This document shows, piece by piece, positions 5,368 through 8,530 of a DNA stretch of 64,000 bases (the first letter of the stretch is position 1; every line of letters begins with the position of its first letter). Location of the stretch: NCBI GenBank assembly GCA_949948895.1, contig CATLHE010000001.1, positions 310,001 to 374,000 of the forward strand, written 5' to 3'. The stretch comes from an uncultured Christensenella sp. Lineage in GTDB: Bacteria; Bacillota; Clostridia; Christensenellales; Pumilibacteraceae. The notes beneath the pieces are model-generated. The model had not been told where the DNA came from. It made no database searches and saw only the letters and a program-made list of their open reading frames with translations. The translations under genes were made by a program, and so were the position numbers.

Positions 5368-5850
5368 TCAAAACTCGACGTACGGACGAACCAAAGCGAT
5401 CTTTGAATTTTCTATTACCGTTTGAACGCCGTTCTCGTCTATCGTGACGTTTTTTTCGTTGCGGCAGACAAGCGTTCCTACTATCAGTTTTTCTTTCCTG
5501 TCGCCGAGCGGCGCGTACAGCTTGACCTCGACAGCCTCGCCGTAGTTGCGCTCGAAATCGCGCTGTGTCTTGAATGGTCTGTCAAGCCCCGGCGAAGACA
5601 CGTCCAAGCAGTACGGCGCTTCGCCCGTAGGATCAAGCGCGTCGAGCGGACCGTCGAGCGCGTTTGAAACAGCCTCGCAGTCGTCGAGACTTACGCCTCC
5701 GTCCTTGGCGATATAAATAATAAGGTGTTTTTCGCCGTAAAGCGTTTTGTACTCGATATCCACGAGTTCGTAACCCATGCCGTCAAGCACGCCTTCTGCT
5801 ACGGGTCTGACTTTTTCGATAACGTTGTTTATGATAAAACTCCCTAACAT
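5368..5850 (-). CDS. rimP: Ribosome maturation factor RimP
   Basis: RimP helps assemble the 30S subunit. The two domains are visible: the N-terminal EKVRPVAEGVLDGMGYELVDIEY region and GLDRPFKTQRDFERNYGE leading into the C-terminal SH3-like barrel. The start is uncertain. The annotated ATG at 5850 sits 4 bases after a 12-bp hairpin and has no free ribosome-binding site. Six codons in, an AGGGAG sequence precedes an AUA codon (5832-5830) by seven bases, and translation from there would give the usual short RimP N-terminus. A TTG at 5868 lies inside the hairpin. rimP is first in its operon. Confidence 0.92.
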   Translation of the reverse strand: MLGSFIINNVIEKVRPVAEGVLDGMGYELVDIEYKTLYGEKHLIIYIAKDGGVSLDDCEAVSNALDGPLDALDPTGEAPYCLDVSSPGLDRPFKTQRDFERNYGEAVEVKLYAPLGDRKEKLIVGTLVCRNEKNVTIDENGVQTVIENSKIALVRPYVEF

Positions 5851-5854
5851 TAAT

Positions 5855-5880
5855 TGAGAGCGGGTCAAGACCCACTCTCA
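5855..5880 (-). promoter_or_regulatory. Leader hairpin of the rimP-nusA operon
   Basis: A 12-base-pair stem (5855-5866 with 5869-5880, one G-U pair, 2-nt loop) in the 5' leader, about 18 bases after the predicted transcription start. A hairpin at this place before rimP (ylxS) is a recurring feature in Bacillota as I recall. It is not followed by a U-run, so it is more likely a stability or translation element than a terminator. Confidence 0.7.
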
Positions 5881-5984: not shown

Positions 5985-7478
5985 TCAAGCTTGATTTTTA
6001 TACAGCCGCTTTTGCATCGCTATAAACGCTTTTGCCGTTGCCGTCGCGTCCGATAATGCTCTATGCGCATTGTCGTTTACGAGCCCGAGCTCGGAAAGCA
6101 CGTGATCGAGCGTCAATACGTCTATTCCCGGGATGGCGCGAGGCGCTATGCCCAATGTATCGAATGTCTTTCTATCGCCGAAAGCATACCCCGCGCGATT
6201 GCCGTACTTTAACAAAAACGGAAAGTCGAACGCGATATTATGCCCTATGAGCGCCGCGCCGCGCGTAAACTTGTAAAAATCGGGGATCACGTCTTCGAAG
6301 AGCGGCTGACCTTTTACCATGTCGTCGGTTATGCCCGTCTTTTTGGATACTTCTTCGGGTATGGGGCGTTTCGGGTCTATGAGCGTGGAAAACGTTTCGG
6401 TTATCACGCCGTCCACTATTTTGACCGCGCCGAGTTCGGTCGGTTTATCGTACAATATCGACAGTCCCGTGGTCTCGAAGTCGAATGCTACGAAAGTGCC
6501 CACCAAAGCCGGCGGGAGCACGTCCGCCTCGCCGAACAAACTCGCTTGGATATACTCTTCGTATGCGAGCGGACGTACCGTCTCGTAATCCTCGGGCTCA
6601 GGTTTTAGCTGTAACGCAGTTAAACCTTTCGCATTGCAAAGAGCAAGAGAACGCACCGTCATAGCGCATTCGTTTGTCCTGCCGCGCTCCAATTCCGTAT
6701 TTCCGAACACGCACACAGGCTTATTGAGTATATCGGCATCAACGACCGAAAAACCGTCGTGCGGAAACATCCTGCACTGTAAAGTCGTATCACCGTCGTA
6801 AAGTATGAATTTTTCATACGGTCTCGAACGCTTAGCGCCCGCGCCCTTACTCAAAAAGTCGGTTGCCATGGTGAGTATACCGCATACCGATATACCCTCG
6901 TTATTGCCCGAAACGTCCGCCGCCGACATAGCGGTTGTCGCGTCAATACTGCCGTACAGCGGCACGATATCCGACACTGCGTATATTTTGGTCTCGTGCG
7001 CCGCCGACGCATCGGCTTCCTCATGCGCAAGCGCAACGCTCTCCACTTCCACCTTGACAGGTGTGACGTACATATTTTTCAAAAACTCTTCGAGACGCGG
7101 AAAGAAATCGTTTTTGGCAAGCTCGAGCATATTTTCATACATGATAAACTTAACCGTCGGCGGCTCGTCATGCGCGCGGATATCGTCGGCAACAGACGCC
7201 ACAAACGGTATCTTGCGCGTGAACGCCGCGACCGCGTCGCGAAGCTTTCTCGGCGACAGATCCTCTGCGGTTATATTGATCGTAAGCGGCGTATTGAACG
7301 GGCACAATTCGGTTATAAGTCTTTTAAGCTCTTCGTCCGCTCTCAGCACCTGCTCCGCGCCATGTAAACACGTAACGCATACTTCGGCACGATCGTTTTT
7401 AAATGCGACCTCGGAAAACCTTACGTCGGCATACTTGCCCGCCGCGCGAGCGTTTATCTCTTGATATATCTTGTTCAT
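5985..7478 (-). CDS. PolC-like protein reduced to N-terminal, OB and 3'-5' proofreading exonuclease domains
   Basis: A 497-residue protein at the exact place polC occupies in Bacillota (between the cdsA-dxr-rseP block and rimP). Residues 1-145 look like the PolC N-terminal domain, and about 195-285 like its OB fold. Residues 328-490 are a DEDDh exonuclease: Exo I D333/E335 in AFDFETTGL, Exo II D418 in GHNIAFDF, Exo III H472 and D477 in AHRALSDA. The PHP domain that surrounds the exonuclease in PolC, and the entire polymerase, thumb and finger region (about 900 residues), are absent. The linker carries QASLF (311-315), which fits the beta-clamp-binding consensus. The frame is intact, with all catalytic residues, so it looks functional rather than decayed. 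Role inferred: a separate proofreading subunit. An unrelated DnaQ-fold nuclease is the alternative. Confidence 0.82.
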   Translation of the reverse strand: MNKIYQEINARAAGKYADVRFSEVAFKNDRAEVCVTCLHGAEQVLRADEELKRLITELCPFNTPLTINITAEDLSPRKLRDAVAAFTRKIPFVASVADDIRAHDEPPTVKFIMYENMLELAKNDFFPRLEEFLKNMYVTPVKVEVESVALAHEEADASAAHETKIYAVSDIVPLYGSIDATTAMSAADVSGNNEGISVCGILTMATDFLSKGAGAKRSRPYEKFILYDGDTTLQCRMFPHDGFSVVDADILNKPVCVFGNTELERGRTNECAMTVRSLALCNAKGLTALQLKPEPEDYETVRPLAYEEYIQASLFGEADVLPPALVGTFVAFDFETTGLSILYDKPTELGAVKIVDGVITETFSTLIDPKRPIPEEVSKKTGITDDMVKGQPLFEDVIPDFYKFTRGAALIGHNIAFDFPFLLKYGNRAGYAFGDRKTFDTLGIAPRAIPGIDVLTLDHVLSELGLVNDNAHRALSDATATAKAFIAMQKRLYKNQA

Positions 7479-7489
7479 AAATTACCGCT

Positions 7490-8530
7490 TTATATCTTGC
7501 TCTTTTGTTCGATCATGCGCAAGATCTCGGGAACGACCTCAGAATGATCGACAGTCTTTACTGCTTTACCGCCTGCGAATATCGCGACCTTGCCGCCCGT
7601 GCCGCCTACGACCCCGAAATCGGCGTCTCGCGCCTCGCCCGGGCCGTTTACCACACAGCCCATTACAGCAAGTTTAACGGGGGTCTTAATATCTTTTGTC
7701 GCGGCTTTAAGCTCGTCGACCAACGCTTTAAGATCGTATTTGCAGCGCGAGCAGGTCGGGCACGAAACTATCTGACAGTAATTTTTATCTATACCCGACT
7801 CTTGCAAAATGAGCCGAGCCGCTTCCACTTCGTTTATCGGATCGCCCGACAGCGACACGCGGACGGTATCGCCTATACCGTCGCAAAGCAGCGAGCCTAT
7901 GCCGACAGCCGATCGAACTATGCCGCGAATATCGGCGCCGCTTTCGGTAACGCCCAAGTGCAACGGGTAATCGACTTCTTCGGCAAGCGACCTATAAGCG
8001 TCTATCATCGTCTTGACGTCCGACGACTTCACCGAGATAACTATATCGTAAAACCCGAACTTTTCCAATAACGCAACGTGCTTGAGCGCGCTTTTTTTAA
8101 GCGCTTCCGCGGGCGGAAGTCCTATGTATTCGCGCTCCAACGATCCCGTGTTTACGCCTATCCTTATGGGCACGCCGTGAGCTTTGCATGCGTCGACGAG
8201 AATTTTGACTTTGTTCTCGTCTCCGATATTGCCGGGATTAAAGCGTATCTTGTCAAACCCGATCTCGCAAGCCATGACGGCGAGCTTATAATCGAACTGT
8301 ATATCGGCGACGAGCGGCATGTCGAATTTACAGATTAACGGTTTACATGCTTTTACTTCGTCTTCGCTCGATACGGCAAGCCTTGCGATATCGCACCCTG
8401 CGATCTGAAGCGCTTTGAGCTGCGCCGCGGTAGCGTCGGTATCCAGCGTATCTGTATTTGTCATCGACTGTATAGCGATCCTATTGCCGCCGCCGATCGA
8501 TAAATTTTTTATTTTTACGACTTTACTCAT
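7490..8530 (-). CDS. ispG: 4-hydroxy-3-methylbut-2-enyl diphosphate synthase (IspG/GcpE)
   Basis: A 346-residue IspG, the [4Fe-4S] enzyme making HMBPP in the MEP isoprenoid pathway. The TIM-barrel start (IKIGGGNRIAIQSMTNTDT-like, here KIKNLSIGGGNRIAIQSMT) and the cluster ligands are visible: SCPTCSRC provides two cysteines and GCVVNGPGEA the third with the conserved glutamate. It lies in one operon with dxr, an earlier enzyme of the same pathway, and uppS, which uses the products to make undecaprenyl carrier. The gap to rseP is 38 bases and to the polC-like gene 11. Confidence 0.96.
   Translation of the reverse strand: MSKVVKIKNLSIGGGNRIAIQSMTNTDTLDTDATAAQLKALQIAGCDIARLAVSSEDEVKACKPLICKFDMPLVADIQFDYKLAVMACEIGFDKIRFNPGNIGDENKVKILVDACKAHGVPIRIGVNTGSLEREYIGLPPAEALKKSALKHVALLEKFGFYDIVISVKSSDVKTMIDAYRSLAEEVDYPLHLGVTESGADIRGIVRSAVGIGSLLCDGIGDTVRVSLSGDPINEVEAARLILQESGIDKNYCQIVSCPTCSRCKYDLKALVDELKAATKDIKTPVKLAVMGCVVNGPGEARDADFGVVGGTGGKVAIFAGGKAVKTVDHSEVVPEILRMIEQKSKI

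Follow-up and report, generated by a model that had tools for sequence, protein, structure and literature searches.

A PolC-like short form without polymerase domains at the polC locus of Christensenellales

Introduction

What is left of a replicative polymerase gene when its polymerase part has gone, and what could the remainder do for the cell? This question is raised by a stretch of 64,000 nucleotides from an uncultured Christensenella sp. (contig CATLHE010000001.1, positions 310,001 to 374,000), called the window here, in which a gene for 497 residues lies where polC belongs. In a first-pass annotation it was proposed that this lineage had lost the PolC polymerase at this locus and kept a clamp-tethered exonuclease that proofreads in trans, perhaps for a DnaE-type replicase. 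The explanation that we favour, and consider probable, is that the gene, referred to below as the short form, is a PolC relic still in use. It would serve DnaE as a clamp-tethered trans-proofreader and would have a second, non-catalytic role in the replisome.

The gene and its domains

Coordinates refer to the whole 64,000-nucleotide stretch. The gene and its parts are as follows.

5985..7478, minus strand: short-form PolC gene, an intact open reading frame of 497 residues with an ATG start, aligned with 84 homologues
7029..7478, minus strand: PolC N-terminal domain, residues 1-150 (AlphaFold pLDDT 92.7; aligned to the PolC N-terminal domain with hhalign)
6624..6986, minus strand: OB-fold domain, residues 165-285
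6534..6548, minus strand: QASLF, residues 311-315, a clamp-binding-type motif (Q311 in at least 90% of 35 aligned homologues)
5994..6497, minus strand: DEDDh exonuclease domain, residues 328-495 (D333, E335, D418, H472, D477)

Open reading frame analysis confirms the intact frame of the first-pass annotation, and the five catalytic residues and QASLF stand where it had placed them; the five residues align to the DEDDh positions. A Pfam scan of the window protein finds RNase_T at residues 330-485, overlapped by a weaker DEDDh_C match under its cut-off. The same single-sequence scan at E 0.1 finds no PHP, no polymerase domain and nothing beyond RNase_T and DEDDh_C, which agrees with the earlier statement that PHP, palm and fingers are missing. 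The NCBIfam PolC models match the protein only through the exonuclease, residues 328-495, and for PRK00448 (PolC) the score is 126.5 bits against the 873 required. The exonuclease is not inserted in a PHP domain; about 40 residues separate it from the OB fold, and the frame stops where the exonuclease ends.

Descent from PolC

The PolC-like N-terminus of the window protein is missed by single-sequence Pfam and NCBIfam scans and is detected by profile comparisons. A profile built from the first 292 residues only matches PolC frames of full length throughout the class (best E 1.9e-29) as well as residues 54-344 of E. faecium PolC (PDB 9qpc, E 2e-7). With hhalign the match to the PolC N-terminal domain is 97.0% and that to the PolC OB fold 99.3%, compared with 0.1% and 10.7% for the reversed controls. 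The claim that residues 1-290 hold PolC-like N-terminal and OB regions is supported by these comparisons, none of which refutes it. Fold comparison of the predicted structure supports a PolC-type assignment for the OB part only. For residues 1-150, which were barely probed, there is no structural match among the matches listed, which does not argue for a new fold; in the model their secondary structure can be read as a pair of alpha-beta-beta-alpha-alpha-beta (KH-like) units. When the full family profile is compared with the PDB, two PolC exonucleases rank first (2p1j, 9.1e-59, and 9qpc, 1.7e-57), ahead of DinG (1.6e-38), a DnaQ domain (6.4e-35) and epsilon (1.3e-27).

The exonuclease taken by itself is equivocal. 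DinG and PolC are roughly equal by fold, and the single-sequence NCBIfam scores put two other families above PolC. The window protein passes the cut-off of the broad TIGR00573 (94.8 vs 71.5 bits) and stays under those of TIGR01406 (81.3 vs 222.7) and PRK05711 (75.6 vs 196). A tree of exonucleases only, which holds no validated DnaQ, groups the short forms at a support of 0.335 and leaves their nearest relative unsettled, a point that counts against the favoured explanation. This tree also places the PolC L110 among small DnaQ-like proteins (support 0.76), and because of the low support and the misplaced PolC it is not relied on. Hence it is the combination of N-terminal domain, OB fold, domain order and locus that carries the case for PolC descent. 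It could be asked whether the protein is PolC by descent only and works off the fork as a repair or single-strand exonuclease, similar to the exonuclease part of DinG or to ExoX. The retention of a clamp-type motif and of the PolC N-terminal and OB domains, along with the clear first rank of PolC with the family profile, makes this very improbable.

The polC locus

The genes around the short form, all on the same strand, are in the order dxr-rseP-ispG-[gene]-rimP-nusA-infB, where the names are presumed from the products. The two immediate neighbours are placed by gene order.

5368..5868, minus strand: presumably rimP, downstream neighbour
7490..8530, minus strand: presumably ispG, upstream neighbour

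Marker genes are found upstream on the same strand in 84 of the 85 aligned short forms and downstream as well in 65. Among 11 PolC genes examined in the order, same-strand markers lie upstream in nine and downstream too in six, and two lack the locus markers. The position before rimP that the first-pass annotation had called that of polC lies between ispG and rimP, which is also the locus of most of the examined PolC genes of the order.

Absence of PolC and distribution of the short form

A full-length polC was sought elsewhere in the genome of the window (1.86 Mb, 94.5% complete) with PF07733, and none was detected. The single PF07733 match, and thus the one Pol III alpha palm, is in a DnaE gene with an intact PHP metal site, so that the earlier view of a PolC polymerase lost at this locus stands. 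Sister genomes share the short form, which is present in 19 of the 20 genomes of the genus; the copy in G003 is split over two frames, and G008 (78% complete) is the sole genome without one. PF07733 has one match in 18 of the 20, and G018 and G019 have an additional partial match. These additional matches lie in frames of 444-445 residues. In G018 this is L125:3968-5290 (G018:C37), a protein of 440 residues that contains a short DnaE-palm-like stretch, and the match in G019:C53 is similar. The L125 protein lies near a tiny exonuclease-like frame on the opposite strand.

The short-form profile and PF07733 were used to search 347 genomes of the order, from 33 families, with counts made by hand. 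The short form belongs to 16 of these families (231 genomes), which widens the scope well beyond the single lineage first proposed. Outside families f17 and f31, 203 of 210 genomes have a match at E 2e-80 or better, the seven exceptions being G108, G120, G126, G152, G328, G335 and G357. The search covered 10 genomes of f17 and one of f31; the short forms there are diverged, and their upstream markers put them at the same locus. The number of PF07733 matches in the 231 genomes is one in 198, two in 23, three in one and none in nine. The other 17 families (116 genomes) look PolC-bearing; there the short-form profile does no better than 2.1e-69, and PF07733 matches two or more times in 107 genomes, once in eight and not at all in one. 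A PolC frame of 1300-1520 residues was seen for 11 of the 17 families, f7 has one of 1158 residues, and f26, f27, f28, f32 and f33 appear PolC-bearing from their PF07733 match counts. The 85 aligned short forms come from 54 genera of the 16 families; the split copy of G003, the fragments of G021 and G042, G126 and duplicate loci within one genome were left out. L103 (G052), a different DEDDh protein, was rejected as a short form and excluded from the counts.

Whether the extra PF07733 matches conceal a PolC was examined with TIGR01405 in 24 genomes. Its cut-off of 1043 was reached only by the positive control G037 (1574 bits), and all others scored at most 160.2. The test covered 19 of the 23 two-match genomes (left out were the f17 genomes G118, G176, G233 and G252, and the three-match G262), and as 0/19 reach the cut-off the idea of a concealed PolC was rejected. 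It is also scarcely credible that the short form is a pseudogene in decay, or that it is a short paralogue and the true polC escaped an incomplete assembly. The genome of the window is 94.5% complete, which leaves some room for a missed gene, but the same pattern is found in many genomes listed as at least 95% complete, and TIGR01405 finds no PolC in the 23 non-control genomes. Chance or a pseudogene was likewise rejected on the 19/20 genomes of the genus, the 85 aligned forms and the open frames in all 54 genera.

In a FastTree of 41 DnaE proteins, midpoint-rooted, 13 PolC genomes are split from 28 short-form genomes with a support of 1.0. Because the tree parts the two groups in this way, a single loss of the polymerase half is probable, in the ancestor of a clade that comprises no fewer than 16 families of Clostridia. 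Loss is simpler than a primitive state because PolC frames occur throughout the rest of the class. A DnaE insertion of variable length at residues ~503-510 (L120:6312-9854) is common in the short-form group, with at least 80% per column against at most 10% in the PolC group. This small insertion, around residue 505 and, as we read it, within the thumb, counts as a single evolutionary event and gives no more than a hint. The subtype label DnaE1 is taken from the Clostridia literature and not from a tree that includes DnaE3. A search of 234 genomes from elsewhere in the class gave no recognisable short form among the matches listed, many of the weaker of which span the OB part only, leaving aside matches on frames of 299-618 residues in G435, G462, G398, G517 and G572.

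Family f11, which is PolC-bearing, has two other features. Several of its genomes (among them G147, G187, G161, G281, G301, G310, G336 and G344) match the short-form profile at only ~1e-5 to 1e-16; these are perhaps PolC proteins with a lost or diverged exonuclease, a mirror image inside the same order. Two more, G074 and G352 (94-96% complete), have one PF07733 match, from either an assembly gap or an independent loss of PolC.

The clamp-binding-type motif

Q311 is close to invariant in the 35 aligned homologues, comparable to the catalytic residues. The strict pattern Q-x-x-[LMI]-[FL] occurs in the linker of 51 of the 62 forms with an intact exonuclease site, where shuffled linkers would give 1.2, and a loose pattern occurs in 55. 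QASLF, which had been noted as fitting the clamp consensus, is thus a conserved clamp-type motif. Its position corresponds to that of the first part of PHP in PolC, and the 11 PolC proteins of the order have no such motif between residue 200 and the exonuclease. At the C-terminal end of PolC, Q-x-x-[LMF]-F is found in nine of 11, and the remaining two have QVSIF and QLTFL. In B. subtilis the C-terminal QLSLF of PolC binds the clamp, and a strain without it was unobtainable, according to the available part of PMC12309361. Because the PolC motif is C-terminal and that of the short form is in the linker, the clamp peptide seems, from comparison of the proteins, to have been re-made at a new place between the OB fold and the exonuclease.

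Decay of the exonuclease and other proofreading capacity

Several observations weigh against a short form that simply proofreads for DnaE. The DEDDh residues are intact in 62 of the 85 aligned short forms, and 23 lack them with the gene still at the polC locus. The strict clamp-type motif is absent from 11 of the 62 intact-site forms and the loose one from seven. All 41 genomes sampled have a DnaE whose PHP site, HHDHEHCDH, retains its nine metal ligands. The genome of the window has a second DEDDh protein (188 residues, L119:4953-5519, G000:C1:35396-35854), which groups in the exonuclease tree with small DnaQ-like proteins, apart from the short forms. Finally, of nine dead-copy genomes sampled from f20, five give no PF00929 match.

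The dead copies belong to genus g8 of f1 (4/4 sampled), f20 (9/12) and f17 (10/10), and they are included in the following loci.

L101, L104, L128-L140, L167-L177: loci including the 23 dead copies

The sample is enriched, since extra members of f17, f20 and g8 were fetched for their odd-looking copies, and 23/85 is therefore no population estimate. Because f1 and f20 also contain intact members, the simplest count would be at least three separate losses of the exonuclease site. In the dead copies the ratio of nonsynonymous to synonymous differences (pN/pS) is below 1 in the N-terminal domain, the OB fold and the former exonuclease for all pairs listed. Among the active pairs listed it is the exonuclease that varies least (pN/pS 0.17-0.32 vs 0.42-0.67 in the N-terminal domain), which does not hold for most dead pairs. 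These ratios are only indicative because synonymous sites approach saturation. The clamp motif is weaker in the dead copies (strict 1/23, loose 9/23).

Because its PHP site is intact, the DnaE of short-form genomes may proofread itself; clostridial DnaE1 is mostly reckoned PHP-active in the part of PMC12926913 available. In each of four f29 genomes sampled, which are 98-100% complete, and likewise in G202, G214 and G354, PF00929 matches the short form and nothing else. The f20 genomes without any match are G329, G338, G234, G082 and G284 (92-97% complete), where proofreading would be left to the PHP domain of DnaE; a caveat applies to G338, in which two other profiles give a weak exonuclease-like match in a 622-residue frame. 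Another RNase_T-family match is present in 4/4 g8 and 7/7 sampled f17 genomes with dead copies. In G052, whose short form is dead, L133:694-2043 (G052:C13) encodes a 449-residue DEDDh protein with a region that is BRCT-like by eye.

These data raise the alternative that the short form is mainly a structural replisome factor, a loader and clamp adaptor for DnaE, with an optional exonuclease and with proofreading done by the DnaE PHP domain. The PHP site intact in every genome sampled, the f20 genomes without a PF00929 match, and the retention of the gene in three exonuclease-dead lineages, where pN/pS stays under 1 in each of the three regions, would fit such a factor. The intact DEDDh site of most forms, the strong conservation of the exonuclease in active pairs and the weakening of the clamp motif in dead copies would not, and we regard this alternative as unlikely.

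Proposed function

We infer the following course of events for a PolC relic that both proofreads and has another role. The polC gene would have kept its N-terminal domain, OB fold and exonuclease and shed PHP, palm, fingers, thumb and the C-terminal clamp motif, with DnaE, the sole replicase detected, as the remaining replicase of the clade. A new clamp-binding-type peptide would have arisen between the OB fold and the exonuclease. This peptide, and perhaps also the N-terminal domain through the clamp loader, would keep the short form beside DnaE, where the OB fold would handle single-stranded DNA and the DEDDh site would remove mispaired 3' ends in trans. The non-catalytic parts would serve another function that the cell needs, which is proposed because three lineages retain the gene after their active sites decayed. 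What is available of PMC5627055 reports that B. subtilis PolC proofreads DnaE in trans and that a polymerase-deficient PolC stimulates DnaE, and the accessible part of PMC3919608 proposes that the PolC N-terminal domain binds the clamp loader.

The loss of the polymerase, the retention of the other three domains and the motif speak for the trans-proofreader of the first-pass annotation; the PHP site (41/41) and the dead copies (23/85) speak against a pure proofreader. A possible view, which we put forward tentatively, is that a replicative polymerase was hollowed out to become a regulatory subunit. In this view the replisome could not do without the N-terminal half of PolC, whose job as a clamp and loader adaptor for DnaE would be independent of polymerase and nuclease. 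The protein would then have been kept after losing the polymerase first and the exonuclease at least three times afterwards.

Comparison with known systems

The short form shares with PolC (B. subtilis; E. faecium 9QPC) the N-terminal domain, OB fold and DEDDh exonuclease, arranged alike, and the chromosomal neighbourhood of 9/11 PolC genes in the order. It differs in having no PHP, polymerase core or C-terminal clamp motif, in its Q-motif between OB fold and exonuclease and in its length (~500 vs ~1310-1470 residues). With epsilon (DnaQ) of E. coli Pol III it shares a separate DEDDh exonuclease gene, DnaE as the only alpha subunit and, judged by sequence, a clamp-binding-type peptide in a linker. 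However, the peptide of epsilon follows the exonuclease whereas that of the short form, read from its sequence, precedes it. The short form has no known alpha-binding tail, and its PolC-descended N-terminal and OB domains are absent from epsilon. An epsilon-like role is plausible, and the short form would be PolC by descent, epsilon-like in its presumed working and by definition neither.

Domain loss from PolC in Clostridia has already been reported in the available part of PMC3919608, where PolC without the Exo insertion is the mirror image, having lost the exonuclease and retained the polymerase. B. subtilis PolC acting on DnaE in trans (PMC5627055, available part) would be a further parallel, that of a PolC-type exonuclease correcting DnaE, but the full polymerase is present there and the polymerase part is gone in the short form. 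No description of a PolC without polymerase was found in the literature searched, whose coverage was partial (few subscription papers, no supplements). A 2026 survey gives three alpha-subunit combinations and, in its available part, does not mention a polymerase-less PolC (PMC12926913).

Conclusions

The short form can be seen as a domain-deletion experiment that nature has run on a replicative polymerase in 16 families. It points to an independent way, based on PolC, in which a DnaE-only cell could arrive at an epsilon-like arrangement. It isolates a little-known function of the PolC N-terminal region, a region that the E. faecium cryo-EM structures do not resolve, according to the part of PMC12592400 available. 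It also bears on how PolC and DnaE1 share their work in Clostridia, which the accessible part of PMC3919608 raises as a question. Gut bacteria with the short form would be predicted to lack the target of PolC inhibitors.
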